Below are positions 1 through 54,867 of a stretch of DNA of 64,000 bases, one piece after another. Position 1 is the first letter of the stretch, and every line of letters starts with the position of its first letter. Both the position numbers and the translations under genes were made by a program. Origin of the DNA: Scenedesmus sp. ARA3 (lineage: Eukaryota; Chlorophyta; Chlorophyceae; Sphaeropleales; Scenedesmaceae); the NCBI GenBank assembly GCA_004335835.1, contig RWJK01001388.1, positions 45,831 to 109,830 on the forward strand. Reading direction: 5' to 3'. Under the pieces are notes generated by a model. The model was not told where the DNA came from. It saw only the letters and a program-made list of their open reading frames with translations, and ran no database searches.

Positions 1-261
1 TGAGAAGGTGCAGCCCAGTAGTCCAGCGTACCCTTGCCCTTGCCCATGCGCACCTACAGCAGCGGCAGCAGCAGCAGCAGCGACAGCGGCAGCAGCAGCA
101 GCAGCGACAGCGGCAGCAGCAGCAGCGACAGCGGCAGCAGCAGGATGAGAAGGTGCAGCCCAGTAGTCCAGTGAACCCTTGCCCTTGCCCATACGCACCT
201 ACAGCAGCAGCAGCAGGGTGAGTTTGTGCAGCGTTAGTCCAGCGCACCCTTGCCGTTGCGG
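1..261 (-). repeat. Three decayed copies of the uL16 third exon among CAG repeats
   Basis: Three copies of the same exon start on the minus strand: 53-1, 198-144 and 261-217. The first two begin after a tag acceptor and read VRMGKGKG, then LDYWAAPSH. The third has lost its acceptor and carries a stop after LD. All three stop matching at about the same place and are separated by AGC-rich repeats (55-143 and 199-216). The continuation after DYW is unlike L16, so the working exon is probably further left, beyond the window. Confidence 0.6.
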
Positions 262-1336
262 CAGCAGCAGCAGCAGCAGCAAGATGGGCATGGGTCAGCG
301 TGACGGATGATGTCCTAGGGGTGGGACTGCGCTGACCACGCTGAAGCTTCGTCTGCGCGTATCACCAGGTACTGGATAATATCGAGCCCTACTGTAAGCA
401 GGCACATAATAAACAGCACGCACGATCTGCAACACCAAAGTCACTACACACATTTGAAATTGAATGGGTGCGCTGAAAAGCAGGCACGTTCACTTCACTC
501 TGAAGCTTGTAATGCTAGTGACTCGGTGACTGCTGGTCTTCGCCATTCTGTGCTGCTGCTGCTGTTGCTGCTGATTCGTATTCAAAAAACTACATTCTAT
601 TCTTTGTTATCTTATTCCAATAAGATGGCATTATGGTATACTTGCTTCATGCCAAGCTGTACCTCTGCAGGCTTGCTGGTGACGGGCACGTTGGGCGTCA
701 CCCGGATCCACAGCATGGCTGTCTTCTTGATCGTGCGGCGCAGCGTGCGCCTGCAACATAATTTCACACAACACAGCGGCAGCAGCAGCAGCAGCAGCAG
801 CAGAAATGGCAACTGCATACCAATTGCAAGATATGGGTACGGTGATGCAACCCTGCAAAGCACGCGCGCCGCTGTGCAGCCAGCACAGTTCTGCACGTAC
901 CCTCACACCTCTGCATCACGTCCAGTCTCAAGTGCACACGATAAGGAGCATGACGTGCCCAACAGCCTGTATGAGTGTACTTGAAAGTATCGTGTGTTAC
1001 TTTGATGTAGCTTTTACAATTGTGCTGCCCGCCAGCTCACCTCGCTGCCTCCAGCGTCCTTGCAGGAATGCGGCAGTGCTCCATCGCCCTGATGCCATAC
1101 AGCCCAAACGCCAGCTGGCGCGTGTTGCCGCATATTGTCTCATTGAACCCCATGCTCTTGTGCGCCTTGCGATATTTGATGCGCCTTGGCATTAGCACAA
1201 AGCTGCGCACGCTGCCTCGCTGCTGCTGCTGCTGCTGCTGCTGCAGCATGCCCTGCGGCTGTTTGAAGGCTAGAGGCAAGCCCAGCGGCCGGCATGGCAG
1301 CAGCGGCTGCTGCTGTGTTTGGGCAAATGCTGACAT
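1..1336 (-). CDS. MRPL16: Mitochondrial ribosomal protein uL16 (partial, cut by window edge)
   Basis: Component of the large subunit of the mitochondrial ribosome. Exons on the minus strand: 1336-1041, then 750-663, then one beyond or at the left edge. The first exon gives the family signature MPRRIKYRKAHKS, then GIRAMEHCRIPARTLEAAR; the second gives LWIRVTPNVPVTSKPAE; the third would continue VRMGKGKG, then DYW. This is the bacterial L16 order: RNA-binding N-terminus, EAAR helix, then RMGKGKG loop. Junctions are gtgagc/cag and gtacag/tag with matching phases. The chosen ATG at 1336 is the first in frame after an upstream stop. A Q- and L-rich leader of about 45 residues before the conserved core could be the mitochondrial targeting sequence, and an additional upstream exon is possible because the open frame extends back to about 1547. 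The C-terminal third is outside the window. Confidence 0.8.
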
Positions 1337-2723: not shown

Positions 2724-5700
2724 ATGGCAGAAGCAGAAGGCTTTGGGGGGCTCACAGCAGATGAGCTAGAAGCACTGGACCCCCATCCAGATGTGCATGC
2801 GCTGTTCAGCCACTACAACAGCACCTACTTTGATGAGTGCCTTGGCGCATGCAGTGTGGAGTGGAGCACCAAGCGCATGACACTGTGAGCAACTGGTGTC
2901 CTGCAAGCTGTGGTGGTGATGGCACCTGCATGTGCTGTGCATGACATGACTTGCAGCTGTGCAGCTGTGCTCAGAACGTTCATGCAAGCCTTCGGACATG
3001 TCAGTTTTAGATTCGGAAAGTCGTGCAGCATGCTGAAACCTGCCTGAAGGCAATGCACAGTCACGCGTGTATGCCTGCGTTCACACAGCAGTGCAGACAC
3101 AGCTGCCGTGCAGTTGCAAGCAGAGCCTACGCGCCGGCAGCACCAGCTGGCAGCACATGCATCACCTGTCGATGTCATTTCACATTGCCATGCGGCTATC
3201 AGTTGCCGGCATCATGCCAGCACCTTCATATTTCAAGCTGTGTTGCTGTATCAAAACAGCTTGTCGCATCGCTGTTTGTGTGCAAGCGCAGGTGTGCTGG
3301 CGTGTGCCACTTCCAGCGTGGTGGCGGCTGCCGCATCAAGCTGTCGGAGCCACTGCTCAAACTCAGGTAACGAGGGGCTGCTATTGACTAGTGGGGTGCT
3401 CACTTGTTCTATAACGGGCAGTGGGCTTACAGATGAAGTGCGCATTCATATGTCCATGTGCTGTTGGGCCCTTGCTTGCTGTCAGTGGACAGCTGCACCC
3501 CAGGCAGCAGCTGTATGCGCTGACACACACCAGCTCAGGTCCACTGCTTTACCTTTGCAATGAAAACCTTTTGTCAACACCAAGCAGTGCTACATGCTAG
3601 CGGTAGCAGCAGTGCCGGAGAGGCCGACCTCAACGATACAATGCTGCTTGCTGTTGGTGACTGTCCATTGTCATGCTTGCAGGCCTCTGAGGGACCTTCA
3701 GGGCACGCTGCTGCACGAGATGATCCATGCTACAGCTGCCAGTACATTTGCACCCACATCATGTTGTGCATGCTTTTGCTATGGTTGGTGCACATCTGCA
3801 GGCCTCTGAGGGACCTGAAGGCCACGCTGCTGCACACGATAATCCACGCTACAGCTGCCAGTACATTTACACCCACATTATGTTGTGCACGCCCTTGCTG
3901 TATTGGTGCACATCTGCATTCCTGCAGGCCTCTGAGGGACCTCAAGGACACGCTGCTGCACAGCTGCCAGTACATTTGCACCCACATCAAGTTGTGCATG
4001 TCATTGCTGTGTTAATGCACATCTGCAGGCCTCTGAGGGACCTCAAGGACACACTGCTGCACGAGATGATCCACGCTACGGCTGCCAGGACATCTACACT
4101 CACATCACGTGTGCATGCTGTTCTGCATCTGCACTGTTGTTTATCATCTGTTGCCATGCCTGCAGGCCTCTGAGGGACCTCAAGGACACGCTGCTGCATG
4201 AGATGATCCATGCGGAGCTGTTCCTGAAGGGCGTGAGGGACGATGGAGACCACGGCAAGGTGTTCAGGTGTGCCAAGGAGCATGGCAGGGCAGGTGGTAC
4301 AGAGGAGTGCAGCTGCTAGAGCGTAAGCAGCACAGCGCGCAGTATGCCAGAATCGCGTCCGCCTTGCAGGTTTGGTTTGGGTTTGATTTGGGTTGAAAAC
4401 AGTATGGGCAGGCTGGTTGCAGTGGTGTCACACAAACCTCATCAGCTGTGCAGCGTTACCAGCAGACAGAAGTGGGAGAAGATGCTGCAAGCAGCAGCGC
4501 GTACAATGTGTTACAGCAGCAGCATCTGGTGGCAGTTGCGCAGGCAAACCACAAGCATGACGGTGCAGCAACGGATTGTTCAGCAGAGGTGTTGCTGCAG
4601 GATTATAAATTCTTCTCTGCTTCTGCTGCTGCTGATGCTGCTGGTGCTGATGCTGCTGCCACTTCGGCAGGTCACGCATGGATGCCATCAATAAGGCCAC
4701 ATGCAGCGACCCACAGGTAACACTGCGTTTCAGTCGCAGCACGTGCAGATGTGCTCATTTACGCGCTGCAGCTCCTGCAGTCTTTTTTCATCACAAACAC
4801 CAATTGTTTTACAAGCGAGTCACGAATAAAAGCGCATTTTGCTTGAGGCGCATGCAGAGGCTACAGTTCTAGCCTGGCGGCCGCTCAGCCCAGTTGTCAC
4901 CAACTTTCAATTCACCCTGACCCTGAACTTGGCCAGACCTGCACACAACCCCGCGCATCCCGTGCTAACTATGCGGCTTCACTGTGCGATCTCCTTGTTG
5001 TGTGGTGTTTTTTGGCACGCAGCGCCCACCTGGCGGCTACCACATCACTGTGTTCCACACCATGCATGATGAGGTCAACGTGTACAGAACACACGTGTGG
5101 GCCTGCAGCCGCTGCGGCAACACTGTGAAGCGCAGTATGAATCGGCCGCCTCAGGAGGCTGACTGCAGGGCCTTTACAAAGGCAGCAGCAGCTGCAGCAG
5201 CAGCGGCGGGCGCGCCAGGGGCGTACTGCAAGTGAGTGGCTGCAAAGTTTGCAGAGTGTTGAGGGCTGAGGGGGGTCGTGGGATATGTTCTTGCTGTTGA
5301 TGTCACAGCAGTGCTTCTGAGGGCGCGCATGATGACAGCGCACCATGCAGAGTTGTGCTTGATGTGCTGTGAGTCCATGCCATGTGGTTGCACCATGAAG
5401 CGAGTCGTGCGCTGCCGCTTGCAGCATTGTTAAGTACCACGCTTGTTGCCAGCGCTGCCTGACTGGTGCTGGCCGCTTGGCTTCTGTGGTGCGCTGCATT
5501 GCAGGGATGCTCGCTGCTGGTTCCACATGCACTCGAAGCACTGTGGAGGGCAGTACAACAAGGTGAGAGTGTATGCTATACAAGGGCAAATGTATTCGGC
5601 TTCTATTTTCAGCAGAGCGAGGTCAATGCACCACTACGCACCTTGATGTGCCAGCAGCATGTCAGCGGCCAATGGGGGCTGGGTTGGGAGGGCTGTGCTG

Positions 5701-6846
5701 TGGCAGCGTTGAGCCATCTGCGCCGGCTGACTGTGCAAGCAGTGCTTGCAGCAACGGTAGTGCCACATGGCTCGCATGCTAGCTGACACATGGCTCGCAT
5801 GCTAGCTGACTAAGCCGGTGGCATCTGCAAGTCACAGGACATTTGGAAAGGAAGTCAGTTGAAGCCATTGGTTGGGTGTGGCCGCTTGCAGCAGGAAGCA
5901 CGTCATTATGCATGGTACAGAAATTTCTGCTGTAGCGCTTGAGCACGCCTTCTGCAATGCTCTGCAGATTCAGGAGCCTGAAAAACAGCAGCCTGCAGCC
6001 GCCAGCAAAGCTGGCAGCAGCAGTAGCGGCAGCAGCGCTGGCGCCGGCGGGGGCAAGAGACCTAAGCAGCCAGCCGCAGCAGCAGCTGCAGCAGCAGCAC
6101 CTGCTGGCATGCAGCCTATAGCAGCCTTCTTCAAACCGCAGAAGCCAAAGCAGCAGGACGCAAGCCAAGGGCAAGCGCAGCAGACCGACCAACGTCTGCG
6201 CGAGTCTCAGCAGCAGCAGCAGCACCAGCAGCAGCAGCAGCAGCCATCAGCACTGCAGCAGCAAGACCAGCAATCAAACCTTCAGCAGCAGCAGCAGTCA
6301 GCGCAGGATTATTGGGGTAGTCTAGGCAAGGGTAAGGTGCTTGGGGGCAGCACCAGCGTGCATGCCAGGGCAGGAGGTGTGCAGCTAGGGCGAGGTGCAG
6401 TGGTGGTTGGAGTAAGCAGCCAGCAGCAGGGGCAGCCAGGAGTCAAACCCCCGCATAGTGTCGTGATACAGCAGCAGCAGCAGCAGCAGCGGCTCCACCA
6501 GCTGCACAGAGAGACAGGCGCAGCTGGTGTGGAGGTTGTTGAGCTGCTGTCATCAGACGATGAGGATGATCAGCAGCAGCAGCAGCAGCAGCAGCAGCCA
6601 CAGCTGCAAGGTGGCCAAGCGCTTCCCAAGCTGGCTGCGGGTGCTGGCGCTGGTGCTGCTGTGGCCACCACAGCAGTAGCTGCACACAGCAGGTCAGCAG
6701 CAGGAGCAGCACAGGCTGCTGATGCAGTAGCTGCAGGTTCTAGTAGTCTGTGCTGTCCTGTGTGCTGCCAGGAGTGGCTGCCGGGTGAGATCAGCAATGC
6801 GCAGCTGAATGCACACCTGGATGCATGCCTGGCGCGCATGCACTAG
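2724..6846 (+). CDS. SPRTN: SPRTN/DVC1-type DNA-dependent metalloprotease
   Basis: Nuclear protease that degrades proteins crosslinked to DNA at replication forks. Exons: 2724-2884, 3292-3366, 4166-4267, 4671-4716, 5023-5231, 5505-5562, 5968-6846 (1530 nt, 509 residues; all phases agree). The SprT domain covers about residues 25-220: RMTLCAGVC, then SEPLLKLRPLRDL, then the zinc site HEMIH (H90, E91, H94) with third ligand H108 in GDHGKVF, then a Cys/His zinc-ribbon-like part (VWACSRCGN, then HCGGQYNK). The long last exon is disordered and Q/A-rich, with a PIP-box-like MQPIAAFF (265-272) for PCNA binding. It ends in a UBZ4 ubiquitin-binding finger with C480, C483, H500 and C504 (CxxC, then HxxxC). 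This is the full animal SPRTN layout apart from a recognised p97 motif. ATG 2724 precedes the conserved domain directly. Confidence 0.92.
3683..4267 (+). repeat. Five tandem copies of the SPRTN active-site exon edge
   Basis: Copies start after a gcag acceptor at 3683, 3802, 3928, 4029 and 4166, spaced 101-137 bp. Each begins GCCTCTGAGGGACC and codes RPLRDL. Copies 1 and 4 keep HEMIH, copy 2 changes it to HTIIH, and copy 3 is cut before it. The first four lose similarity to the exon just after the histidines and share a different tail (tacagctgccagtaca). Only the fifth copy runs on to a good donor (gtgtgc after 4267), so it is the working exon. Confidence 0.9.
5765..5810 (+). repeat. 23-bp perfect tandem duplication in SPRTN last intron
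   Basis: The unit beginning acatggctcgcatgctag occurs twice back to back. It lies between exons six and seven and has no coding role. Confidence 0.85.
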
Positions 6847-10681: not shown

Positions 10682-12224
10682 TCAGTGCGCCTCCACGCCC
10701 TCCTCCACCCTGTACCACTCTATCTGCACCTCCTCGCCCACATTGGCATAGTCGCCCTCATAGCGCTTCGACCTGCGGCAGCACCGCAGCAGCCACGCAG
10801 CATGACAGTGAGGCGCCACACAGCAGCCAGACAGAGGGCAGGCTGGTCACAAACCAATCCGCAGTCATGAACGATCACCAGGTTTGCTGGTGGGGGCATC
10901 CGCGGCCGCAGCAGGTGGTGAGCAACGCCAGGCAGCCTGGGCATGTTGACATGAATGACGCAGCCAATATGTTTGTTGTTTTAGCGTACTGGCTGGCTGC
11001 GCTGTCATTTTTACCTGAACTCCCACCAGTTGATTGGCCGGTAGTGAGGCACCTTGTCTGCAGCAGCCACACCAAAGGCGCAGCACAGCAGCAGGGGGCA
11101 GCAGCAACACAACGTCAACGCAGGATGCATCAGCACAAACTGGCACCCACTGGCACTGCTTAGGCAGATCAGCCAGCACGCCAGCCAGCAGTCTGCAGAT
11201 GACTGCTGCCCTACTGCCAACACGACTTGCCACCTGTGCCACCCGAATAATGAACAGCTGCATGGGTGCTCCTGCTGTGATACTGTGCTACAGCTGCTGG
11301 CTTGAGACAAGTTCAGCGTGTGAGCCACGCACCTCCAACCGCCTCCACCTGCAGCGGCTGTATGTCAACGCTGGGGTTGAAGAAGAATGCACGGCTGTAG
11401 CTAAGCTTACCTGATGTCCACAACAAGGCTGCAACACATCAGACATGATGCACAACCCTCGGCACCCGCTGCCAGTGCTTCACCATGCAGGCCAACCTTT
11501 GAATGCAGTCTGTGCTCCTGCACAGGTGCAAAAAGCTTCACATGATGGCTTTTTACAGGCTGTTGCAACAAGCCACGCACCTCCAACTGCCTCCACCTGC
11601 AGCGGCTGTATGTCCACGCTGTGGCTGGGGTTGAAGAAGAACGCGCGGCTGTAGCGGGGCCGGCTGCTGGACTGCAGCACGCGGTGGTTGCTGGCAAAGA
11701 ACTTGTCGTTGGTGGCCACCTGAGCCATGTCCTGCAAGCAGCAGCAGCAGCAGCATGCAGCAGTCATACGACATGCTTGCATGCCTTGCTCCTGCATGTT
11801 TATGCATGTGTTCAAAGGCTGCAGTGCCTCAGCAGTGGGCCCTCGCTCCAGCGGCCTGCCAATGCCTTGCACAGCACGCAACAAACAGTGGGGCTTTGCG
11901 TCACACAAGAACTGCACGCCGACTGTGTGACTGCTGCACACCCAGTTGCATCTGCTCTGTTTGACCAGCATAGCATGCTTAGCTTACACATTCCTCATGT
12001 GAATCAGAAACCAAGGTATCTCGCTGTCCAGCTCCACTAAGAGTGTCAACAGCTCAGCTACAAGTGGCTGTGACCACCATCCAAAGCCATGAAACCAAAA
12101 GCATACGAGCTTGCCAACAGGTCCCCACTCACCCCAACGTTGATGGTGAAGGCTCCCGGCAGCGGCTGCACCAGGTGCCACACACCCTCCCGCAGCACCT
12201 GACACGCAGCATCACAGCAGCATC

Positions 12225-12258
<34 letters not shown>

Positions 12259-13342
12259 GTGGGTCATTGTTTTAATGAAAGGCTTACACTTGCTTGCAGC
12301 CTGGCTCCAGGAGCTGAGCTCTCTCCTGAACTACATGTCAGCACCTGATAAGCCGTACCACGGTAGTACAAGCATTCGTCACACACACAACGCCACATCC
12401 TCATCCTCGCGATGACGTGGGGCGCACCTGCAGCCCAGCCACGTGCAGCCTCATGGGCTGCAGCCCGAGGCCGGCAGTTTAGTCGGCAACAACCACAATC
12501 CCTGGTCAAACAACATGGCAGTGCGTTGACGAGCCTTACCTGCAGCCCAGCCACGCCCTCCTGCACCAGCACCGTCCGGAAGCCCGCATCCTTGTGCAAC
12601 GAATCCCGAGGCTGCCAGGCGCCTGTTCATACTGACCACACCAGTCCGACACAGCACCGCCAACAGCAAAGACAACGAGCAGAAAGGCAGACGCCTGGCT
12701 GCAGCCTGGCACCGGAAGCTGAGCTCTCCTGGCCTACAAATCCTGAGAAAAAACTCAGTGACACATACTACAACACATCTCCAGCCCCACCTGCAGCCCA
12801 GCCACGTCATCCTGCACCAGCACCGTCAGAAAGCCCGCATCCTTGTGCGGTGAGATACCCAGGCTGTCGGGCGCAGCCCCAGGCGTCACCGGGTAGTAAT
12901 TGAGCCGCAGGAAGCTGGTGTGACTTGGTGCAAACAGCCCATGCAGTGCAGTGGGCTGCAGGCCCAGGCCGGTTGCAATCACTTCGAGCAGCCGGAAGGA
13001 GATGCGGGACATCTCTGTGAAGTAGCGCTGGTTGATGGGCCTGGTGGTGTTTGGTGCGAGGGAAGGTGGGCGGATCGGGGCGTGGCAGGTAGCAGCAGAT
13101 TGGTGGGTAGTGATAGGTGCATGCTGGGGTAAAGCATGCTCCTCCATGATTTGCAGGAGGAACAGCATGGGCAAAGCATGCGTGTTGCAAGCTGTCGTTT
13201 GTGTGCAGGTAGGGCGCACAAACGCGCTGGCGCTGCTAAGTTTGTGATAGGGCTTCTAAGCTCTTTGCACTGAGTACATGCACATTGTGTAAATTTGTTC
13301 TGCAGTTGTCCAGCAATTGTCCAGCAACAATAGAAGCAACAA

Positions 13343-41371: not shown

Positions 41372-42595
41372 AACTGTTCGTCATCAGCGGCACGCTCACA
41401 CTGTTGGGGTACAGCAGCACGTCCTTGAGCACCATCTGCAACAGATAACAACAAACACGCGGATCAGCAGCATCAGCAGCAACAGTTGGTCAAGAGCGCC
41501 ATCTGCGGTACAACAGCAAAACAACAAGTGCAGCAGCAGCAGCAGCAGCAGCGTCCCGAGCAGCCTGCACTGAAGCCATACTACCTGTCAAAGACGAAGC
41601 CACACCGTGTGTTGGCCAAACATCGGGGGCTTTGGGCAGGCATCTATAGCAGCAACACCCTCAGTGCAGCAAGTGCTGCTCACACCGAGCGCCCAGTCCA
41701 CCGCCGGCTTCTAAGCACAACACAGCAGCACGCACACAAGCACGCAGAGAGCCACACACACGCAGCCGCAGGGCTGCCGCCGCTGCTGCTGCTGCTCACC
41801 CCAATCGCCCAGTCCACCACACGCTTACTCATGGCAGCTGCTCAGCACCACATACACAACACACAGCCCCTAGCTACAACTGTGCTGACTGACTTTTGCC
41901 TGTCTGCCCAGCTCACCCCAATGGCCCAGTCCACGGCCTGCTTCACTCCCGGCAGCGCCATCATGTCGGGGCCGTTGAACAGGCGCAGGCTGTAGTCCAG
42001 GTGCATCGGCTGCAGCAGGCTCAGCGTGGCGCCGCCTGCAAATGCACACAAAACAGACAGTGTTCAGGCGAGCAGGCGGCAATGTGAGCAGGCCAAGCAC
42101 AAAGGGCGCAGGCTGTAGTCCAGGTGCATCGGCTGCAGCAGGCTCAGCGTGGCGCCGCCTGCGGACACACAAGACAGTGTTGTGTTTGGAAAGGCCAGCA
42201 GGCGGCAATGTGGGCTGGTCAAGTGCAACAGAAAGGGAGAACATGTGGTATGCCCTGTGCTGCGCTCCCCGGTGCCATGCTGCGCTGTGCTGCAAGTCCC
42301 TGCATAAACTCTGTTCAATCAAATTGATTGAACTCAAACCCACCGATGCAGGGTATGGTGTCCACCATGTTGGGCACCACGTGCTCCCCTGTGTTGTGCT
42401 GCGCTGTGCTGTAGTGTCCTACCTAAACATCAAAATTGTGATATGAAAACAAAAACCACGACTCACCGATGCAGGGTATGGTGTCCACCATGTTGAGCAC
42501 CACGCGTGCCAGGGCCTTGTACTGGATGTGGCTGATGTGCACGGGGATGACCACGCGCGCAGGGCCCAGCTTCAGGTACACCTGCACATCAAACT

Positions 42596-42634
<39 letters not shown>

Positions 42635-42977
42635 GCGGCGGCAGCATGGCATGAGCTGGTGTTGGTCTGCACATGCTTCGGCTACTCGAGCAGAGCACAA
42701 CATGTGTCTGCACACAGATAGCTAGGCCTGCGGGTGACCACTCGTTGCTGACCCTGATGAGCGGCATCAAACTGCGCCTTGCAATTGCAGCACTTGAAAA
42801 AGGAAGCTACAACGCACGGGCATGTGACCGCCAGCACTGCAAACAACCTAGGCTCACCACTGCGTTGCTGCCCCAGATGAGGGGCATCTCCATGATGCAG
42901 GTGTCTTCCGCTGTGCTGTACACCTTCATGCCCGCCACACGCACAGGGTGCTCGCCCAGCGTGAAGTACTTGTCTGC

Positions 42978-43076
<99 letters not shown>

Positions 43077-44817
43077 GACGACAATGTCAGGAACATAGAG
43101 CGGCCAGAGCCCCTGTAGCCGGCGCACTGGAAAAGCAATGGCTAATGACAGGCAATCGTCATGCTGGTTCTGCTGTGCTGCACAACAAGTTGCGGCACTA
43201 ATGGCAGACCTTGTCATGTGCACAGCACGAACCATGGTGCAACGTGTTGTTACATTGTCAGGTTTGTTACTTTGTCATGTTACATTGTTATTTTCTCACC
43301 TGCGATGTGTGGATCCAGGTGGTCCGCGTCCATGATGCTGTATGGCCCCAGTGTGATGTCATCAATCAGCGACAGCACTCCAGGGATCTGCAGATAAAAA
43401 CAATTTGTACAAAGACGGATTAAGCAGCAGTACAGGGAGAGCAAAAGCATGGCAGAGGTGATAGTGAATACGAGGCAGCAGTGCTGCGCAAGGCAGCCGA
43501 TGTTCCAATTACGAGCTGTCGTGCAAGGTGAACAGGCTTCCACATAAGCAATGTTCCTGCAGAAGTAGACGCCCGTGATGCAGCACAACGCTTTTGAACG
43601 TTCTACAGCTGCAACATTTTTCACAGCTGCGGCTGCGGTGCAGCTGCGGATGCGGTGCAGTACATGATGAGCAAGCGCTGCTGTCTTTGCCTGCCTGCTT
43701 GCTGCGCTGTGCGGAGCAGTGTGTAAACCCTCACCGCGTTCAGGTTCTGCTGCACGATGGGTTTGACCGCTTTGGCCACCTCCAGCAGAATCGCTGATGT
43801 CAGCTTGGGCCACAGCAGCCGAATCATGCGGTTGATCATCACCCACTGCAGCAAAACGGTAGACAAACAACAAGACATCAGCATGTGTGATTCAAGCATT
43901 GCATTAGCTTGGGCAACGGCAGCCGAATCATGCAGTTGGTCATCGGCTGCAGCAGCAAACACCATGGCAGACACCAGCACCGGCATTTCAGGATGCACGG
44001 CGTCAGCTGAAAGCATCAGCACAAGCCTGTGCAAGCAACGTAGGGTGCATGGGCATGCGCTGAACAGCATGCTTTCATGACAGCTTTTTTAACAACCACC
44101 TGCTGACCTGCTCGCGCATGCTGCACTGCATATGAGCCTGCAACCATGTGGAACTAGTGCTGCTGCTGCTTTCAGGGCAGGTGCTGTGAGCAACTTTGAT
44201 TGATCAGTTGTCTTGCAATCCTGGCCACAGGCACACGTTTCCTGACATGGCCAGCTGTGCGGCTGACTCAGAAGGCCAGCACCCGCGGCTGCTGCTATCT
44301 GAAACTTGTCCTGCAAGTGTTTCGAGTCTAGCAGCATCCTTCAAGTGTCCTGCAAGCCTGGAGATACCACGGGTGGGCAACAGCAGTGCCTAGCTGTCAA
44401 GCTGACAAGCAGCAGCACCAACTCACTCTGTCGTAGTCAGGCCAGAAGGTCCACTCAGGGGTGAGTGGGATCATGCCGCGCATCTCATCTGTCACATTGG
44501 CACACGCTGGCGTTCGGATGTTGTCATTCTTGTCTGCTGCTTCTGTGATGAAGTTAAAATCCTTGGGGCGGTCACCAGAGAAGACAGCGCTGCCAATCTG
44601 TGGTGGGTGAGTTGCAGTGTCAGTTGCAGTAGCATGAGCATAACTTAAGACACGTGAAATGCGTCCGGTGCTGATGTCTGAAAGCGTTGAGCCCGTTGCT
44701 GCACTGCTGCTGCTGCCTGGTGGTACAGTCACCAGCTTGTCAGCTGCTGTTGCCACGACTCACCCCCACGCCGGCTAAAGCCCCTAGTCCAGCTCCGATA
44801 AGCGGTCCAAACACCAT
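34313..44817 (-). CDS. Extended-synaptotagmin-like lipid transfer protein (SMP + two C2 domains)
   Basis: Expected to tether ER to plasma membrane (or another membrane) and move lipids. Eighteen exons: 44817-44764, 44597-44427, 43845-43735, 43387-43300, 42973-42858, 42593-42467, 42035-41917, 41156-40986, 40433-40317, 39954-39847, 38701-38561, 38177-38109, 37542-37269, 36927-36764, 36206-36082, 35667-35518, 35128-34966, 34477-34313 (2433 nt, 810 residues, all phases agree). A short glycine-zipper hydrophobic N-terminus (MVFGPLIGAGLGALAGVG) probably anchors it. The SMP domain follows (PEWTFWPDYDR, INRMIRLLWPKL, then VRVAGMKVY, VVIPVHISHIQY). C2A has acidic calcium loops (TKGDPYVVFE; DYDRLCPTDD). 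An Ala/Glu/Lys coiled-coil linker then leads to C2B, which ends KLSWSNCHVEQYMD. C2B lacks the loop aspartates (NPDAYVEM; VKNKTGIL). Plant relatives are SYT/NTMC2 proteins. Confidence 0.9.
34850..35445 (-). repeat. Donor-edge copies of C2B exons 16 and 17
   Basis: Fragment 35445-35379 repeats the end of exon 16 (real end 35518; TNPDAYMEMLVVAYD-like). Fragment 34893-34850 repeats part of exon 17 (real end 34966; NKTGILNATL-like, decayed). Both lie downstream of their source exons in the transcript. Confidence 0.7.
36206..36680 (-). repeat. Four tandem copies of exon 15 acceptor edge
   Basis: Upstream of the real exon start (36206), copies begin at about 36331, 36456, 36579 and 36680, spaced 125, 125, 123 and about 100 bp. 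Each has the acceptor side and the coding start PVGMMHITLQYMPFE or a decayed form, and each is joined to a CAG-containing intron piece. The two nearest copies are almost identical, so they are recent. Confidence 0.93.
37019..37170 (-). repeat. Two copies of exon 14 acceptor edge
   Basis: Fragments 37170-37119 (EAKRRKALINEQREAED) and 37050-37019 (EGKRREALTK) repeat the start of exon 14 (36927; EVKRRKALTKEQREAED). Both come before the real exon in the transcript and lack donors. Confidence 0.88.
37818..37957 (-). repeat. Two copies of exon 12 donor edge
   Basis: Fragments 37957-37931 and about 37836-37818 repeat the end of exon 12 (DMSGKTIIV, donor gtgagc; real end 38109), in a wider repeat of the surrounding intron (ctgtgcaaggctgtgcaa motifs). 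Confidence 0.75.
38180..38220. repeat. CAG microsatellite at exon 12 acceptor
   Basis: About thirteen CAG units (CTG on the transcript) directly upstream of the acceptor of exon 12. Confidence 0.9.
38773..38937 (-). repeat. Two copies of exon 11 acceptor edge
   Basis: Fragments 38843-38773 and 38937-38894 repeat the start of exon 11 (real start 38701; VAYHLADWIKSP, then LVLPLHM). They are decayed and frameshifted and lie upstream in the transcript. Confidence 0.85.
39092..39164 (-). tRNA. tRNA-Phe (GAA anticodon), nested in an intron
   Basis: 73 nt with no intron. Acceptor stem GGCGAAA/TTTCGCC with discriminator A; D stem GCTC/GAGC; anticodon loop CTGAAGA; T arm CCCAG TTCGATC CTGGG. No CCA is encoded. 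The top pair of the anticodon stem (T with C) is a mismatch, while the next pair is C-G where other eukaryotes usually have T-A. A TTTT stretch follows about ten bases downstream, a pol III terminator. It lies within intron 10 of the synaptotagmin-like gene on the same strand. Confidence 0.95.
39408..39674 (-). repeat. Two copies of exon 10 donor edge
   Basis: Fragment 39674-39600 codes LLLGTAEVFFSEEAIEG with its own gtgagg donor. Fragment 39444-39408 is shorter and decayed. The source is exon 10 (real end 39847), upstream in the transcript. Confidence 0.88.
40504..40548 (-). repeat. Copy of exon 9 acceptor edge
   Basis: Repeats the start of exon 9 (IREGRVQRSKTVKSS; real start 40433) with no change in about 45 bp, then diverges. 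It lies upstream of the real exon. Confidence 0.9.
41242..41435 (-). repeat. Two copies of exon 8 acceptor edge (start of C2A)
   Basis: Fragments 41300-41242 and 41435-41374 repeat MVLKDVLLYPNSVSVPLMT almost exactly (real start 41156) and are joined to CAG runs. Spacing is about 135-145 bp. Confidence 0.93.
41684..42380 (-). repeat. Copies of exon 6 and exon 7 edges
   Basis: Donor-edge copies of exon 7 (VDWAIG) lie at 41828-41800 and 41710-41684, downstream of the real end 41917. An acceptor-edge copy (GATLSLLQPMHLDYSLR) lies at 42158-42105, upstream of the real start 42035. A donor-edge copy of exon 6 (NMVDTIPCIG) lies at 42380-42344. Confidence 0.88.
42594..42635. repeat. CAG microsatellite at exon 6 acceptor
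   Basis: About thirteen CAG units (CTG in the transcript) directly upstream of the acceptor of exon 6. Confidence 0.92.
42980..43075. repeat. Pure (AGC)32 microsatellite before exon 5 acceptor
   Basis: The longest triplet run in the window with (TGC)30 at 21661. On the transcript it reads CTG and ends at the ccgcag acceptor of exon 5 (42973). Confidence 0.97.
43905..43946 (-). repeat. Copy of exon 3 acceptor edge
   Basis: Decayed repeat of the start of exon 3 (PMTNCMIRLPLPKL-like, compared with MINRMIRLLWPKL at 43845). It has its own ctgcag acceptor and lies upstream in the transcript. Confidence 0.8.
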
Positions 44818-45280: not shown

Positions 45281-47472
45281 ATGGCCGCATACGTGCATCC
45301 TTACTACCCGCTGGGCTTGGAATTGCCAGGGGTACAGCCTCTGGTGATGCCTTTTGAGAAAATCTTGGCAGTCTTCTTCACAGCATGTGGCATGGCGCTG
45401 GCAGCTGGCTGGTACATGACAGGTGTGCTGCTGTCCTTGGCTTTGTGCAGACCTGCCTGTCTTTGGTTGCAAGCATGGCTAATACTAATTGGTTTACTCA
45501 GCAGTAGACCGAGGCTGTTTCACCTCTGGTGGCCCTACACCCTGAGAAGCTGCTGCTGCTGCGGTCGCTGCGCTGGTGCTGCTGTCCTGCAGGACGTGCC
45601 AAGTTCCTGTCTACTGGCGAGCGCAGCATGGCATGCTGGTTCCTGTGCTCAGGCCTTATTCATCTGTTTGTTGAAGGTGCGTAGGCGCAGCATCAGCAAC
45701 TCACTGAGGCATGCAGAGGCTGCTGCCAGCAGCAGCAGCATCCAAGGTAACAATGCATAGCAGTAGACAGCAACCTCGTTCTACCCTTGCAGGAACAACC
45801 ACACACAGTAGGCCAAGCTAGTGCCTGCAGATGTATGCCTCACACATCAAGGGTATCATCCAAGATTGCATGTGTCTGACGCCACCGCTACTCTGCTGCC
45901 GCACAGGCACTGTGGTGCTCAACAGCAAGTTCTACCAGGACACTTCTGGCAACATTCTCAACGAAATTTGTGAGTGGCCGTATCCGTGCTGCGGTAGGCT
46001 GATAGGTGTCTAGTGGCGGCAGTGCGCTGAGCAGCAGCGCCGCATGTCAAAACACGTCAGGCGCAGCAGCAGCAGCAGCAGCAGCAATCGCAGCAACATC
46101 ACCAGCAGCATCAGTGCCAGAGTGGCGCATTGCTGGGCATCCTGGCAGGCAGCTCTGCAGAGCAGCCAAGCAGCTGTCCAGGCTAGTGCTCACAGCAGCT
46201 TGGCACAACACCAGCCATATGTCAGTTCAGGTCTTGTGCTGCCAGAGGTTACCCATGCAGCTGCACAACACCTGCAGGAAAGCACCAAAGCGCAATGGTT
46301 CGGCATTGCCCTCCAGCCACCTCACAGCTGCTGACATCTCGTTGTAGGCAGCCATGCTGCATGTGCCGTGACGCGTCATTACACGCACAACACCCTCGTC
46401 CTCTGGCGCTGTGCGCTGCAACGAACTGACCCTCACCTCACCTGCTGCTGTCCTGCAGGGAAGGAGTACAGCAAGGCAGACAGCCGCTACGCCACGCGCG
46501 ACGACTTTGTCATCTCCATGGAGGCCGTGACTGCCTTCATTGAGGGCCCCGGCTGCCTGCTGATCGTGTGGGGGCTGCTCAAGGCCAAGCCCTGGCGCTA
46601 CACTGCGGTGCTGCTGGTGTCGCTGGGGCAGTTCTACGGAGATGTGCTGTACTTTGGGACCTGCCTGCATGGCGGTGAGCTGCAGCAGTTGCGCTTGGAG
46701 TGTTACTCCTACCACTTGCAATGCAGAGACCACGAAACGCTATCATGCATGGTGTCCCACACACACTTAGGCTGGCGCACTCATTGGCTCGTTCAGATGT
46801 GAGGTGGCTGCCCACCCACGTCTCGTCTTGCTGCTGCTGCCTGTTCCTGCAGGCATGTCCCGCCACACTCGCCCTGAGTTCATCTACTTCTGGTTCTACT
46901 TCATCATCGTGAACGGCGTGTGGCTGGTGGTGCCCATGGCATGCATGATCCACGCAGCCAAAAAGATCAACAACGCCATTGCAGGGTGAGGCGAGGGCAC
47001 GTGTTTGTCGCATATGTGTAGCAACCCTCAAAACACAGCACAGCTTGCATTGTGGTTGAACTGCTGCTGGTGGCAGCAATCCAAGGTGGTGTGCCAGCTG
47101 CCATAGTGTAGTGGAGGTGGTGCTTGATACAGGCAGAGTTGTGCACACTGTAGTACGTGCATGCCGATTCTGTTCTGCCAATCAATTCAGAGTCCTTCAT
47201 GCATCAATCAATTACGCGTTTTTCTAGCAAGAGGTGAACCCAGAGGAGGGAGCCACTCCCAAACCACCTTAGGTGATTCCTAACCAGTGAGGAACCACCA
47301 GTGAAGGAGTGGTGTTTCCTTCATGCATGCGCCGTGCAATTGCAGCTTGATAACAAGCAGCGTGCAAAAGCCCCTCCCCAAGTGCAAAGCAAAGACGATT
47401 GCCATGTGTTGCTGTTCTGTCTGGTGGTGTTTGCTTTTGTGCTGCAGGACTGGTGAGAAGAAGCACGCATGA
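45281..47472 (+). CDS. EBP: Sterol delta8-delta7 isomerase (EBP family)
   Basis: ER membrane enzyme that moves the sterol double bond from C8 to C7 (HYD1 in plants). Exons: 45281-45422, 45593-45676, 45907-45969, 46459-46674, 46853-46985, 47448-47472 (663 nt, 220 residues; all phases agree). Family blocks: HPYYPLGLELPG at the N-terminus; GRAKFLSTGERS, then GLIHLFVEG with the catalytic H71 and E75; LNEIWKEYSKADSRY; SMEAVTAFIEGP with E118; GQFYGDVLYFGT; and FIYFWFYFIIVNGVWLVVP. About four membrane segments. It ends with a lysine-rich GEKKHA, which could be an ER retrieval signal of the KKxx type shifted by one residue. The last exon codes only eight residues plus the stop. The ATG at 45281 fits the family start. 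Confidence 0.95.
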
Positions 47473-49775: not shown

Positions 49776-52400
49776 CAGCCAGTCAAGCCTTACACTTCAC
49801 ATTGGTGCATTCTTGACTGAGGCAAGCAGCATGCATTTCAGCCACACACACCATGACAGTGCAAGCCTGGGTGGTGTCTTTCCTACATCTCGTCAGCACA
49901 GCACAGGTGCAGGAGCGCTGCCAGCAATGGTCAACCGTCGACGCTGCCTTGACTGTCGCTGTGTTCTGTTCTGATTTTTAGGTGGGAGCTGCTTCACTGC
50001 TGGGCATCCCAAATGGCCTGATCTTCCTTCTATGGGTGATGGTGAGGCATCACAGCAGCATGCTGAGCTCCTCTGCATGCAGCTGCATTGCAAATGTGTC
50101 ACGGCAGCATGCTGCACTGCGCACTGCGCAGTGCTGCGCTGCTCTGCATGCAGCTGTGATGCCTTGCCGCATAATGGGTCTTTGCATGCAGCAGCGCTTG
50201 GTGCAGCTGTGCTGTTTGAACATTTCAGTAGGCATCAGCAATGGCTGGCTGCCAGGCCATGCAACAGCAGCTGTAGCATGTGAAATAGGTGCTACAAACA
50301 CCTGTGTGCGGCCGCAAGCGCAATTTCGCATGCATCACAAGTGCAGCAGACACAGCCTATGCAGGTGCAACCATGCTACACACACAACACCGTCACAAGC
50401 TCCATAATCTGCCTTTTTTATTTTGGGCACATTGTAACATGTAACATGTTACATGCAACGTGTAACAGGTGACCATTGACCCCATCAAGAACCACGCCTG
50501 GCGCTGCACCAGCGCTGCTGACGCAGCGTGTGCAGCGGTGTGGGCCGCGCCCACCAGCGACAACTTCTGTGAGCTGCCGGCTGCCGCATGGCAGTGGACA
50601 AACTACGGTGAGTGCGGTACAGATAAATATCTGGCACCACATACCGGTAATACACATAAATATCTGGCGGCAGCCAGCCACGACTTCTGTGAGCTGCCGG
50701 CCAGCGCATGGCAGTGGAGAAACTACGGTGAGTGCGGTACAGCTGCAACTATGTTTGAATTTTTGAATTTCCCAATCCCGGTGGGAAGGCGGCAAAGGGA
50801 ACTGACGGATTCCCATGGTGATGCCCACAAAGTGTGCCGAATGCACCCCTACTATCCTCATCCTATTCCAATCTGAGATGGAGTGTCTGCACATGCTGGG
50901 CTAAGCGGCTCAGTGAGTGGCTGCTATCGCACGCATTCGAGTTGGGCTGGGGCACATCTCGATGCATGCTGTGTGTTGCACCTCAGTTTTTGCAGGGCTT
51001 CTTACGTGCTGCTGCTGCTGCTGCCCCCGCTGCTGCTGCAGACAGCCTGGTGTCGCGCTTCAACCTGATCTGCGGCGACGGCTGGAAGGTGCAGTTTGCC
51101 AACAGCGTCATGTTCGTGGGCTGCTTCATCGGTGCGCCACCCGCCCCTGTACATATTTGGTTCAGGCTTTTTGTACTTTTGGACACATAACACCTTGCGA
51201 CCTCATGTTCGTGGGCTGCTTTATAGGTGCGCCACCCGCCCCTGCACGTTTTTGGTCCAGGGTTTTTGCACTTGGTTGTTGGACATGTTCGTGGGCTGCT
51301 TCATAGTGCCGCTCCGTGCTTACACAACAGCACCCTGCAAATTCACCGTGCTTATCCATTCATGTGATGCTGTTGCTGCACAAGCCAGCCCTCTGCACCT
51401 ACCCATCTGGCACCGTCATTTTCTGCTGTGTTTGATGCAGGCTCTGGCCTGTTCGGGGCCTGGTCAGACCGAGTGGGCCGCAAGGTGCCTCTGTTTGTGG
51501 CCAGCGCACTCGCTGCTGCTGCCACGCTTGTGAGCACGGCTGGGCCAAGCTTCTGGTTTGTGGCTGCCATGCGCTTTGTTGTGGGCATCGGCGCTGCGGG
51601 GCAGGTGCAGGGAGTGGTGCTGCTGTGCATGGAGACAACTGGAAGGTCCTTCAGGTGCGCTGGCGGCTGTTGCTGCTGCTGCTGGTGCTGGTGGTAGTGG
51701 TTATGGTTGTGGTGGCGCTGCGGGGCAGGTGCAGGGCGTGGTGCTGCTGTGCATGGAGACGACCGGCAGGTCATTCAGGTGCTCTGGCTGCTGCTGCTGC
51801 TGGTGCTGCTGTTGCTGCTGCTGGTGCTGCTGCCGCTGCTGGTGCTTGCTGGTGCTGCTGGGGTGGTGGTGGTAGTGCAGGGTGTGGTGCTACTGTGCAT
51901 GGAGACGACCGGCAGGTCATTCAGGTGCGCTGGCTGCTGCTGTGGCTGGTGCTGTGGCTGGTGGTTGGGTGGTGGTGGTGGCTGTGGTGGTGGTGATTGT
52001 GCTGCAGTGCATGGAGACGACCGGCAGGTCGTTCAGGTGCGCTGGCTGCTGTTGCTGCTGCTGCTGGTGCTGTGGCTGGTGGTAATTTTGGTGGTGGTGG
52101 TGGTGGTGGTGGTAGTGGTGACTGTGCTGCTGTGCATGGAAACGACCGGCAGGTCATTCAGGTGCGGGGGCGGCTGCTGCTTAAAGTTTTGGTGGTGGTG
52201 GTGCTGGTAGTAGTGTGCTGGCCAGGTGCAGGGCGTGGTGCTGCTGTGCATGGAGACGGCCGACAGGTCGTTCAGGTGCGCTGGCTGCTGCTGCTGCTGC
52301 TGCCGTTGCTGGTGCTGCTGGTGCTGCTGGGGTGGTAGTGGTAGTGCGGGGAGTGGTGCTGCTGGGCATGCCGACGACTGGAAGGTCATTCAGGTGCGCT

Positions 52401-52439
<39 letters not shown>

Positions 52440-54867
52440 GTGGTGGTGCTGGTGCTCTCGTGCGAGATGTCGTGTCCACAGCTGGTATTGTGGCTATCCT
52501 GTATGCAGCCGAGCGTCATGCTGCTGCTGCTGCTGCTGCTGCAGGGGCATCGCCGGTGTGCCTCAGGTGGTGATGTTTTGCTTTGGGGAGTACCTGTTGG
52601 TCGCTCTAGCCGTGCTGGTGCCACACTGGCGCACCCTCACTTGGGCAGCAGGCTGTGTGGGCACTGCGGCGCTACTGATCTATCCCATTGTGCCTGAGTC
52701 AGCACGCTGGCTTATTGGTCAGGAGGGAAAAGAAGATCAGGCCGTGGAGCTGCTTCGAAGCATATCAGTTCGAAATGGATCTAGAATGCCTGAGCGGCAT
52801 TTGCTGCGCAGCAAGAGCAGCAGGTCATTTTCGGCCGCCAGTGGCGGGGACGGCAGTGACGGGCGTGCGCTGAGAGCTAGCAAGAGCGCAAAGATAGTGG
52901 GGTGCAATGCGGCATTGGAGCAGCAGCAGCAGCAGCAGCTGCGTGCTTCTAAGAGCATGCCAGTGCTGCGGCATGACAGCAGCGTCCATCCAGTAGAAGA
53001 CAGCAGCAGCAGCAGCAGCAGCAGCGACGGCTTGCCTGCTGAAGGAGATCCCTGCAGCTCACCTGCACCCAGCACGCCTGATCTGGCAGTTATCGCCACG
53101 GCAGATGACGCTGGAAGTATCATTGCCGATAGCACAGCAGCAGCACCAGCAGCAGCAGCAGCGCCTGTGCAGCCGCCGAGCCTCGGACAGCTGCTGTGGC
53201 GGCACCCCAGCATGGCGGCTATGTCACTGGTGATGCTGCTGGTGTGGTTTTCGAACTTCAGCTCCTTCTACGTGATCGCGCTGGGCAGCGGAGGCCTGCC
53301 GGGATCCATGTGAGTGCTGTCATTATGTTTGTTATGTGTCATTTTTGTGAAAGTAACAATGATGACCAGCTGTTGCACCTAATTGCATGCAGCTTGCCGC
53401 CTGCTTTCTCAATGCACATCACTCATGGTTGTGTTGACCTCCTGTGTCTGAATCTGCTGCAACTGCTGCAGCCACGTCACCTTTGCGCTGCAGGTGACTG
53501 GCCAGATCATTGCAACGCTGCTATCCGGTGCACTGATTGACCAGCTGGGCCGTCACAACATCATCTCTGCGAGCCTGCTGATTGGTGGTGCTGCATGCCT
53601 GGGATGCTCAAACACATCCAACAGGATCGCGCAGATCGTACTGGCAACCATTGGGCAGTTTGGCTGCACAGGTGCGCTGTGAGGCGGTGATGTGTACAGA
53701 CGCTTGAGCCCTCTGTCGGCATTTGGTTCGTTTGTAGCGGGTCGGTGCCGTATATTGAAAGTGCATGCTCATGGAGCTGTTAGTGCGCAGCTGCTCAGCT
53801 GGCACACACTGATCCGCGCATGCAGCAGTACCCAGCAAGCTTTGTATGTGTGCGAAACATCAACTGCGCTGCTGCTGATGCTGCTGCAGCCTCTCTGGCT
53901 GCCACACCCATCTACACAGCCGAGCTCTACCCCACCCCAGTGCGCTCGACCGCCCTGGGCATGTGCAACAAGGCCTGCAGATGTGGCAGCATCTCAGCAC
54001 CTTTCCTGCTGATGCTGGGCACGCATACTGCTGCTGCATTCGGCTCTGCGCTGTTCATGCCGTATGTCATTGTGGGCTGCGTGTGCCTGCTGGCGGGCGC
54101 GCTGGTGCTGCTGATGCCTGAGACCCTGGGCAAGGACATGCCTGAGTGCATGGAGGTGGGTTGAGGTTGCTGCTTTCTATGAAAAGTTGGGGTGGTTCAG
54201 GGCGTGCTTGGCTTTGGTTTCCTGGTGCTCGCTCATTCATTGTGTAAAGCTTGCGCATACCGTGTGCGTTCCTCTTTGCTTAACTGCCTTTGATACGTGT
54301 GAACACTTGCCGTACCATTCGTGCGCTGGTGCTGCTGATGCCAGAAACGCTGGGGAAGGACATGCCTGAGTGTATGGAGTTGAGGGACCGCTTTCTTGGT
54401 TGTGTCAGGGTGGTGTTGGGGTGTTTTTGTGATGCTTCAAGCAACACTGTTGGTGCCTCACCTGCCAACGCATGTACGTCGTGTGTTCCTTTTTGTCCCC
54501 AGCTGTGCCACGCACGAGTTACCTTGTTTTCCTGTAGCCTGCTGGGATGCTCCTGCTGCTGATGACTATTCTATTGGTGTTACAGGACGTTGCTGAGCTG
54601 CATCCAGTTGCCTCACATATCGCCGCACCCTGCCTGCGGTGAGGTTGACTGGCATAGCGTCTCGCTGCTGCTGCTGCTGTTGGGGTGTTGCTGCAGGACC
54701 TAGCCCAGCTGCAGACTGTCTTCTCAGCAAAGCCCTGGAGGCACAGCAGCAGCAGCAGCTGCACTGCTGCCAGCCGCTGCTGGTCTGTCCTGGCATTCCT
54801 GTTCAGGACGCGTGCTGAGCCTAAGGCAGTCAGCGCAGCAGCTGCAGCAGGTGCTGAAGCTGCATAG
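49573..54867 (+). CDS. SLC22-like major facilitator (organic ion/sugar-type) transporter
   Basis: Polytopic transporter, substrate unknown. Exons: 49573-49698, 49982-50041, 50469-50607, 51042-51131, 51441-51654, 52545-53309, 53472-53671, 53890-54155 and 54697-54867 (2031 nt, 676 residues; phases agree). The N-terminus FDEALTHYVGEFGKGQLRI is typical of organic cation transporters. The extracellular loop after TM1 is Cys-rich, then FNLICGDGWKVQFANSVMF. Motif A is GAWSDRVGRK. VPESARWLIG ends TM6, and IYTAELYPTPVRSTALG and LLMPETLGKDMPECME lie at the end of the second half. The cytoplasmic loop between TM6 and TM7 carries about 150 extra residues rich in Ser, Gln and Ala. Two candidate last exons exist (54586-54642, DVAELHPVAS; 54697-54867, DLAQLQTVFS); both fit in frame, so the C-terminus is uncertain. 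Confidence 0.85.
50672..51306 (+). repeat. Donor-edge copies of transporter exons 3 and 4
   Basis: Fragment 50672-50727 repeats the end of exon 3 (DFCELPASAWQWRNYG) with the identical donor and intron start (gtgagtgcggtacag). Fragments 51203-51225 and 51284-51306 repeat the end of exon 4 (MFVGCFI); the first keeps its donor (gtgcgcc). Confidence 0.9.
51604..52393 (+). repeat. Seven tandem copies of transporter exon 5 donor edge
   Basis: The exon end coding GVVLLCMETTGRSF, with its donor, recurs with edges at 51654 (real), 51778, 51924, 52036, 52161, 52275 and 52393. Spacing is 112-146 bp. Every copy keeps TTCAG|GTGC, and six of seven keep an almost unchanged exon part. Between copies are GT- and CTG-rich linkers. 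Confidence 0.95.
54322..54379 (+). repeat. Copy of transporter exon 8 donor edge
   Basis: Repeats ALVLLMPETLGKDMPECME (real end 54155) with mostly silent changes. The donor GT has become TT, so this edge is dead. Confidence 0.92.

Follow-up and report, generated by a model that had tools for sequence, protein, structure and literature searches.

About one in seven predicted exon edges tested in this alga, which is close to Tetradesmus obliquus, has a copy of itself in its own intron (78 of 511, ~15%, over ~282 kb on two contigs), and the repeated copies, lying next to the edge from which they come and in the same orientation, include both exon and splice-site sequence. When the targets were shuffled, a control proposed in a first-pass annotation of this DNA and run here on the ~282 kb, none of the 511 edges matched. 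The intron copies described by that annotation are real, and splice-edge arrays occur beyond the 64-kb stretch in which they were first noticed (hereafter the window, 64,000 nucleotides). Chance or low-complexity repetition was rejected on the same control and on Markov-shuffled sequence, which gave no matching pairs. The reading that we favour, at about even odds (probability near 0.5), is that of tandem arrays seeded on splice junctions, then expanded and homogenised through their exon-derived half while the intron half turns over.

The sample consisted of two contig stretches totalling 299,830 bp, including 18,042 N (~282 kb usable), with gene models from a semi-Markov gene finder trained on the studied sequence itself. 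The finder merged neighbouring genes, missed some exons (one of EBP, judged from protein P0001, and at least one of E-Syt, judged from P0243) and called as exons some of the copies, which we term decoys. The edge scan excluded low-complexity probes, exons shorter than 80 bp and N-rich targets. On the wrong side of the exon 16 of 480 edges match, and probes taken from exon middles and from intron interiors match in 2 of 218 and 38 of 758 cases (5%), respectively. Fourteen of the 16 wrong-side matches align over 90–100% of the exon and are whole-exon copies, or else decoys or array members that the gene finder called exons; the remaining two are a decoy called an exon (11333–11428, 69 of 96 bp) and a match at 33323–33438 of contig C712 (89 of 116 bp aligned). 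The polarity rule put forward in the first-pass annotation, with acceptor-edge copies 5′ and donor-edge copies 3′ of the real exon, is obeyed on reading by every edge placed in the window, but the wrong-side score across the sample is not zero. The rule needs no mechanism of its own, because the mRNA stays intact only if the copy in use is the one attached to the exon body.

The two stretches hold 97 arrays, of which 84 overlap a predicted exon or lie within 20 bp of one, and 13, with spacings of 57–311 bp, are further than that from any predicted exon. Since arrays make up 13% of intron bases (18,672 of 139,860, in 94 of 370 predicted introns), the description of introns as built from such copies was overstated. 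With decoy exons removed, introns with edge copies have a median length of 494 bp (n = 64) compared to 303 bp (n = 270) for those without; before that removal introns with arrays were not longer (299 versus 302 bp), we think because decoys called exons had split them. Thirteen further loci were examined. Eight, fetched for an ABC domain (26.6 kb; seven on other contigs and one on a far part of C712), carry 10 arrays on five of the loci with spacings of 98–140 bp, and five, fetched through a repeat-rich SPRTN stretch (15.5 kb), carry four arrays, all in the locus L034 (spacings 101, 106, 113 and 556 bp); in both sets the count is of arrays irrespective of exon edges.

In the window a manual count placed 19 exon edges with copies, compared to the "about 25 exons" first estimated, and all six genes originally named have them: uL16 (one edge), SPRTN (one), a 2OG oxygenase (three), a beta-helix-like gene (one), the synaptotagmin-like gene E-Syt (nine) and an MFS transporter (four). 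Pfam supports five of the six, with 2OG-Fe(II) oxygenase and MFS/sugar transporter among the matches and with C2 found for E-Syt on its T. obliquus homologue P0243, where SMP matches fell below the cut-off. The real acceptor edge of the uL16 exon (1–56, minus strand, edge at 53; Pfam Ribosomal_L16) has a 95% identical decoy 145 bp upstream (146–201). The SPRTN exon 4166–4267 (plus strand; Pfam SprT-like), whose presumed working acceptor is contiguous with the exon body, has four decoy acceptor edges at 3668–4165 with a spacing of 101–137 bp, three of which stop at an identical point in the exon. On the minus strand, the 2OG oxygenase has decoy donor edges at 11323–11401 (exon 11581–11731), at 12532–12622 (exon 12791–12955, lag 251) and, as an array of four detected decoys, at 14352–14893 (exon 14894–15003). 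The beta-helix-like gene, whose protein lacks a Pfam match, is a weak case: its 235-bp tandem unit (23233–23706, plus strand) starts within exon 23057–23247, 15 bp short of the donor edge, and the match holds those 15 bp of exon and is mostly intronic.

In E-Syt, on the minus strand, decoy acceptor edges occur twice at 34547–34735 (exon 34313–34477), four times at 36280–36675 (exon 36082–36206), where the array's outer end is close to the outermost decoy's splice edge, once at 38774–38850 (exon 38561–38701), once at 40503–40557 (exon 40317–40433), with 46 exon bases identical and the intron side dissimilar, twice at 41240–41440 (MVLKDVLLYPNS; exon 40986–41156), and once at 42105–42223 (exon 41917–42035), the last being nearly a full-unit tandem copy. 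Its decoy donor edges lie at 35375–35440 (exon 35518–35667), with GT kept and the flanking intron dissimilar, at 42264–42381 (exon 42467–42593), and at 39592–39671, for which the real donor near 39839 was placed with the help of P0243, whose alignment ends there. The MFS transporter (plus strand) has single decoy donor edges at 50674–50742 (exon 50536–50607, lag 120), at 51203–51273 (exon 51042–51131, lag 95) and at 54323–54382 (exon 53890–54155, lag 224, GT lost), and six of them, spaced by 112–146 bp, at 51714–52401 (exon 51441–51654).

Spacings below 175 bp average 121 ± 17 bp (n = 89 of 119), and a second class near 240 bp includes whole-exon duplicates; there is no preference for multiples of three (22/38/29). 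Each edge with an array has one to six copies, and the exon part has a median of 55 bp, to which the splice consensus is added. The inner boundary in the exon is shared within arrays, with a median SD of 2.8 bp compared to 25 bp overall (31 arrays with at least two decoys), which supports a tandem origin, and the outer boundary lies mostly at the splice edge. Whole-exon tandem duplication, including mutually exclusive exons, was rejected, the copies being mostly partial: where the exon is 60 bp or longer and the probe scores 50 or more (58 such arrays have a lag below 320 bp), five cases come to within 8 bp of the exon's opposite end, and the others cover part of the exon.

Curation started from 157 spanning matches at 752 predicted junctions, of which we set aside 63 with a wrong-side partner, which are whole-exon copies or decoys called exons. 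From the remaining 94, eight with fewer than 17 of 25 matches beside the junction were dropped, leaving 86, and then 21 with exons below 60 bp, leaving 65 curated edges; the outer-flank, spacing and splice-site counts come from the same 94, limited to exons of 60 bp or more whose copy was picked up by a 40-bp probe, and the outer-flank and spacing sets, also of n = 65, need not equal the curated one. The exon half is ~92% identical between the real edge and the outermost decoy (median 0.92), and for roughly three in four of 65 outermost decoys the intron half does not exceed the null's 95th percentile, so that not every copy holds the complete unit with its intron half. Inner spacers resemble each other (median identity 0.70–0.71, null mean 0.51–0.53), and the outermost flank, at 0.55, is hardly alike. 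Edges diverge by 7.3% where the intron half is similar and by 7.7% where it is not. In 19 edge-only single-unit cases a weak residual similarity is seen on the intron side at 10–45 bp (mean percentile 0.69, KS p = 0.015), and none at 16–50 bp from the edge (mean percentile 0.55, p = 0.75).

Two sources for the repeated sequence were considered and rejected. A mobile element or introner family is rejected because units are unrelated between loci: a cross-locus BLAST among the 97 arrays gave 11 rows, of which 10 link adjacent pieces of a single locus, and genome searches with the spacer at 40434–40503 and with the stretch beyond the edge at 8485 of C712 found, respectively, the query itself only and the query with neighbouring parts of its own array only. 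Derivation of the spacer by copy-back of the edge was set aside as well, there being no consistent signal in 30 cases (mean z of 0.61, −0.25 and 0.03 for the reverse complement, reverse and complement of the edge, and 1.11 for the edge itself).

The decoys had been described as decayed, which does not hold for their splice sites. GT is kept in 62 of 66 donor decoys and AG in 46 of 51 acceptor decoys (two further acceptor decoys fell short of the edge), and mean PWM scores of decoys nearly equal those of real sites (donor 5.85 versus 6.39; acceptor 5.24 versus 6.29). Differences between edges fall on codon positions 1/2/3 as 66/59/236 (85 cases), with real-specific changes at 8/7/36 and decoy-lineage changes on all positions (d1 7/10/22, d2 16/23/31); in single-unit arrays the counts are 37/37/102 (53 cases, two main classes), a third-position excess that we roughly estimate to be somewhat above expectation for neutral decoys. 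At the protein level, existing introns appear to have been extended, the homologous proteins being without copies. The T. obliquus protein P0243 contains each of the nine E-Syt edges a single time and lacks the decoys; P0245, whose name marks it as transcript-derived, has six of the nine a single time (the other three lie outside its coverage), and P0122 has single occurrences of two kinesin edges. A self-repeat scan of 253 proteins, the query P0241 aside, gave on reading only low-complexity or coiled-coil-like matches. Separately, the corresponding kinesin intron of a related alga (P0121) holds a possible decayed decoy (p = 0.0065 against shuffles), which was picked post hoc and is only suggestive.

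The first-pass annotation, whose interpretation is partly supported overall, took the arrays for plain tandem duplications of a unit (~120 bp by the present spacings) spanning the junction, with later decay that spared the outermost, functional site alone; as a rival account the decay is taken as neutral. Duplication across a junction agrees with the shared inner boundaries, the longer introns and the absence of decoys from homologous proteins, and a BLAST match runs more than 16 bp into the intron at 37 of the 65 curated edges. However, outermost decoys with an exon half of at least 0.9 (36 cases, mean 0.95) average 0.59 in the intron half, and 25% of these intron halves exceed the 95th percentile of the null, where by our own arithmetic equal decay would leave ~0.9. 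Simple unit duplication is thus unsupported, since the outermost intron half is at background while the exon half is at 0.92, and the decay model is unsupported as decoy sites are nearly as strong as real ones; the proposal is already contradicted for most outermost copies, and we consider it unlikely. Copying confined to the splice edge, in which the exon edge and splice consensus would enter the intron in one step, perhaps linked to RNA or the spliceosome, accords with several cases of identical edges whose flanks are dissimilar within a few bases. Among 36 placeable pairs, taken from 40 two-copy single-unit pairs in predicted genes that were found without reference to junctions, the intron-side match ends 3–16 bp outside the exon end in 26, 22–67 bp out in eight and inside the exon in two (manual count; in two of the 36 the end concerned is a predicted stop, and the exons include decoys called exons). 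The splice consensus itself, however, contributes several of the matching bases, independent copying would not be expected to yield a shared inner boundary within an array, and we know of no such one-step process, so we regard this as a minority prospect. Fairly doubtful, too, is a recurrent process of the lineage that would act on splice edges as such, taking edge and consensus and little beyond at a set ~120-bp pitch, with decoys tolerated because the spliceosome would pair sites strictly across the exon.

A different origin would be a diverged allele or hybrid partner, through out-of-register exchange between haplotypes or, as an artefact, an assembler that strung haplotype contigs together; this presumes introns that cannot be aligned and exons that are alike. 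It would account for similar edges beside unrelated flanks, and the partly coding-like differences between edges speak for it, but this excess is smaller in single-unit arrays, and the class near 240 bp holds whole-exon duplicates. Moreover, the assembly has short matches only, and no second full copy, for the SPRTN stretch or window 38000–44500 (in a search that skips very common words), the array stretches inspected contain no N, and two haplotypes cannot yield three to seven copies with one boundary and spacing; we hold it to be improbable. Selection might instead maintain the decoys as functional alternative splice sites, for instance for unproductive splicing, as could be suggested by their retained dinucleotides and by strengths close to those of real sites. 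Yet such retention is about what ~5–8% neutral divergence gives (own arithmetic), an in-frame, stop-free insert is possible from only 6 of 117 decoys, spacings ignore the reading frame, decoy-lineage changes fall on all codon positions and homologous proteins lack decoy sequence, making this very unlikely.

In the account that we favour, a DNA duplication event would seed the array across a splice junction, and only events leaving a splice site contiguous with the exon would be tolerated, giving the polarity rule. The exon-derived half would be the one segment common to all copies, and one of its members, the real edge, would be subject to coding selection; slippage or unequal exchange through this half would add or remove units of spacer and edge and keep the edges alike, and the spacers, above all the outermost intron flank, would turn over until unrecognisable. 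Among near-equal sites ~120 bp apart the spliceosome would pick the body-proximal one, giving the shortest exon and the longest intron, a choice to be expected under exon definition, where sites are paired across the exon and not the intron. Counted against this account is that homogenisation through the edge is itself an inferred step, and that several pairs of decoys in the MFS array with six of them have spacers more similar than their edges. The flush outer boundary beside the 46 identical bases at 40433 needs either very effective homogenisation or an edge-limited copying event. The arrays away from exons and the matches of intron-interior probes also weigh against it, and part of the enrichment at edges may come from slow evolution of the real edge, which makes copies easier to detect. 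The account leaves the seeding step, the narrow 121-bp unit and the edge-limited outer boundary unaccounted for.

Several known systems share features with these arrays. In the human 6-16 (IFI6) gene a minisatellite over a splice junction reportedly supplies multiple donor sites, the likeness being tandem repeats over a junction that give several such sites; there, a single gene and a short repeat are involved, whereas the alga has ~121-bp units in many genes and at acceptors as well as donors. Among the literature matches listed, with subscription journals mostly outside, we found no description of the splice-edge array pattern. In the potato RdRp gene, a tandem genomic duplication crosses an intron–exon boundary of a nuclear gene, as here, and most splice signals of the new intron were copied from parental ones (Ma, Lan and Niu 2016, PMC4974935). 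That case is one locus with a new intron and inserted exon sequence, whereas the algal copies lie inside an existing intron, with up to six decoys, at ~15% of tested edges and with homologous proteins that lack them (PMC4974935). In the model of Rogers (1989), as described in the same paper, introns are gained when an AGGT-bearing exon segment is duplicated; it too has a short tandem duplication with splice dinucleotides and an unchanged protein, but the exonic segment makes both sites of a new intron, whereas the alga lengthens an existing intron from one side (PMC4974935). Introners and introner-like elements are similar as a genome-wide gain of intron sequence, but are described as copies of one element (PMC9860276), unlike the algal units. 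Small tandem duplications made by Pol alpha-primase in break repair are a known cellular source that could seed arrays, and the passages on them do not tie them to splice junctions (PMC8355091).

For annotation, the gene finder used here called several decoys exons, and others may do so too. If the pattern is genome-wide, it would be a source of intron growth, in which introns lengthen as the edges of their own exons are copied in tandem. Should a process acting on splice edges as such prove true, extrapolation would put the number of competent decoy sites in the genome at tens of thousands. The arrays would also be a large natural experiment on splice-site choice, many exons having near-perfect competitors ~120 bp away, among which the site that yields the shortest exon is apparently chosen, and they would let RNA-seq test whether splice sites in compact algal genomes are recognised across exons or introns.

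We sampled 160 kb of contig RWJK01001388.1 (C1018), in which the window occupies 45831-109830, and 140 kb of a second contig (C712), together with small loci, from a genome of 87.3 Mb in 1,567 contigs. All exons, introns and edges (an exon end with its splice consensus) are predictions of gene models built in this analysis, where Pfam bore out five of six tested gene names. Self-comparison of about 282 kb of non-N sequence, with simple repeats masked first, identified 97 tandem arrays, and the same comparison on Markov-shuffled sequence gave no matching pairs. A predicted exon was overlapped or lay within 20 bp for 84 of the 97, and array spacings form a main cluster at 100–145 bp and a second group near 224–269 bp. 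Independently of this search, we compared 40-bp probes, taken from the edges of predicted exons ≥80 bp long, to targets 30–430 bp away. Matches on the probe's own intron side were found for 41/249 donors and 37/262 acceptors, compared to 0/511 for shuffled targets, which upholds the copies of exon edges in introns described by the first-pass annotation. Control probes from exon middles matched in 2/218 cases, and those from intron interiors in 38/758. Wrong-side matches came to 9/237 and 7/243; of these 16, 14 cover 90–100% of the exon, another is a decoy (an edge copy in the adjoining intron) called as an exon, and the last is partial (89/116 bp). Among 13 additional loci, with arrays unmapped to exon edges, eight fetched for an unrelated domain gave 10 arrays (spacings 98–140 bp), and five fetched via a repeat-rich stretch gave four (101–556 bp), all in one locus. 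Scaling 97 per 282 kb to 87 Mb, an extrapolation from 0.3% of the genome, would give some 30,000 arrays.

Array anatomy was taken from 65 edges of exons of at least 60 bp without a wrong-side partner. Each edge has one to six decoys, in which the copied exon part has a median length of 55 bp (IQR 42–70), and 89 of 119 successive spacings are under 175 bp, averaging 121 ± 17 bp. Within the 31 arrays with at least two decoys the exon end-point is nearly common (median SD 2.8 bp, compared to 25 bp overall), and repeat units are unrelated between loci. Introns with edge copies have a median length of 494 bp, compared to 303 bp for those without. Distinct from these partial copies, whole predicted exons are tandemly duplicated at L027:4104-5074 and L014:5200-5789 (two sampled stretches), with periods near 226–256 bp. 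The window also holds long pure GCA/TGC runs of up to 32 units, in introns (for instance 21658-21750 and 42979-43075) and predicted coding sequence (6571-6598), and a 19-bp minisatellite repeated perfectly 5.2 times (55920-56018), away from any predicted exon edge.

Were both halves of the unit duplicated across the junction and then left to decay, as first proposed, their divergence should be similar, within about two-fold. The outermost decoys, farthest from the exon body, do not fit this: their intron half has a median identity of 0.55 both to the real junction and to other decoys, near the null mean of 0.51–0.53 (26% and 22%, respectively, exceed the null 95th percentile), whereas their exon half is 0.92 identical to the real edge and 0.86 to other decoys. 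Spacers of inner decoys are partly alike (0.70–0.71). Since the outermost intron half is near background while the exon half stays alike, the usual layout of an array, moving outward from the body of the exon, is edge, spacer, edge, spacer, edge, and then unrelated intron. Printed alignments show alike or identical edges, whose flanks become dissimilar no more than a few bases away from the splice site. For two-copy pairs found regardless of junctions, the intron-side match ended 3–16 bp beyond the predicted exon end in 26 of the 36 that could be placed against one by manual count (4 of 40 were unplaceable).

Nor have the decoy splice sites decayed as the earlier model had it: GT is kept in 62/66 and AG in 46/51, with mean PWM scores close to those of real sites, which suggests that decoys are competitors of the real sites rather than relics. 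In just 6/117 cases would splicing at the decoy insert sequence that is in frame and free of stops. Homologous proteins would place the used site at the copy joined to the exon body. All nine E-Syt edges occur once at full score in P0243, the annotated Tetradesmus obliquus E-Syt, with second-best matches at background, and in P0245, a homologue whose name marks it as transcript-derived, six of them occur once each, the other three lying outside its coverage. P0243 is 89% identical across the whole query, with mismatches largely, by eye, in exons missed or mis-ended by our model; T. obliquus (Sphaeropleales) is the nearest named organism, and the remaining close matches are sphaeroplealean. A tRNA gene (Rfam RF00005, 66.5 bits; window 39092-39164, minus strand) lies within a predicted E-Syt intron on the same strand. 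In a KIN-14E-like kinesin (C1018:26717-27622, or L011:6717-7622, minus strand) a 302-codon open frame spans two exons, the intervening intron and its decoys, and P0122 from a related alga, transcript-derived by its name, has both edges once each. The frames of P0121 and P0130, also from related algae, seem to continue across the same intron, which in P0121 may contain a decayed decoy (p = 0.0065, for a case chosen after being seen). At window 45281-46985 (plus strand) lies an emopamil-binding protein (sterol isomerase) gene, for which P0001 reveals an exon missed by the gene model. The read-archive protein P0060 differs from the translation of an exon and flanking intron of this gene at one position besides the start residue, and public reads therefore seem to exist from this or a very close strain.

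We favour a mechanism in which short duplications would seed arrays on splice junctions, which would then expand, contract and homogenise via the exon-derived half, common to all copies and anchored by the real exon. Such seeding and homogenisation would account for tandem growth, for inner boundaries that are shared, for the likeness among edges and among inner spacers, and for outer flanks that are unrelated; neither the 121-bp unit nor the closeness of the outer boundary to the edge follows from it. The strongest alternative is that some process copies splice edges alone. Plain duplication followed by neutral decay is less likely, given the disparity between the halves, and we likewise give less weight to inter-haplotype exchange or an assembly artefact.

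Differences between edge and decoy fall at codon positions 1/2/3 in 66/59/236 instances (85 cases), an excess that leaves room for copies derived from a diverged allele and comes partly from the roughly 240-bp arrays that include whole-exon duplicates. The counts are 20/26/56 for single-unit arrays with a dissimilar intron half (25 cases) and 17/11/46 for those with a similar one (28 cases). In a three-way comparison, changes number 8/7/36 in the real lineage and 7/10/22 and 16/23/31 in the decoys, which we read as mostly neutral decoys beside a constrained real edge. That decoys are selected alternative splice sites is also less likely than junction-seeded arrays.

No description of such splice-edge arrays was found in the open-access literature among the matches listed. 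The nearest among them is a single potato gene, where a tandem duplication across an intron–exon boundary created a new intron (PMC4974935). In the arrays, use of the site joined to the exon body gives the shortest exon and therefore the longest intron, the choice we would expect under exon definition. In a green-algal genome comparison, T. obliquus has the longest mean intron among the five algae tabulated (462 bp; PMC5966456), and edge arrays may contribute to this length.
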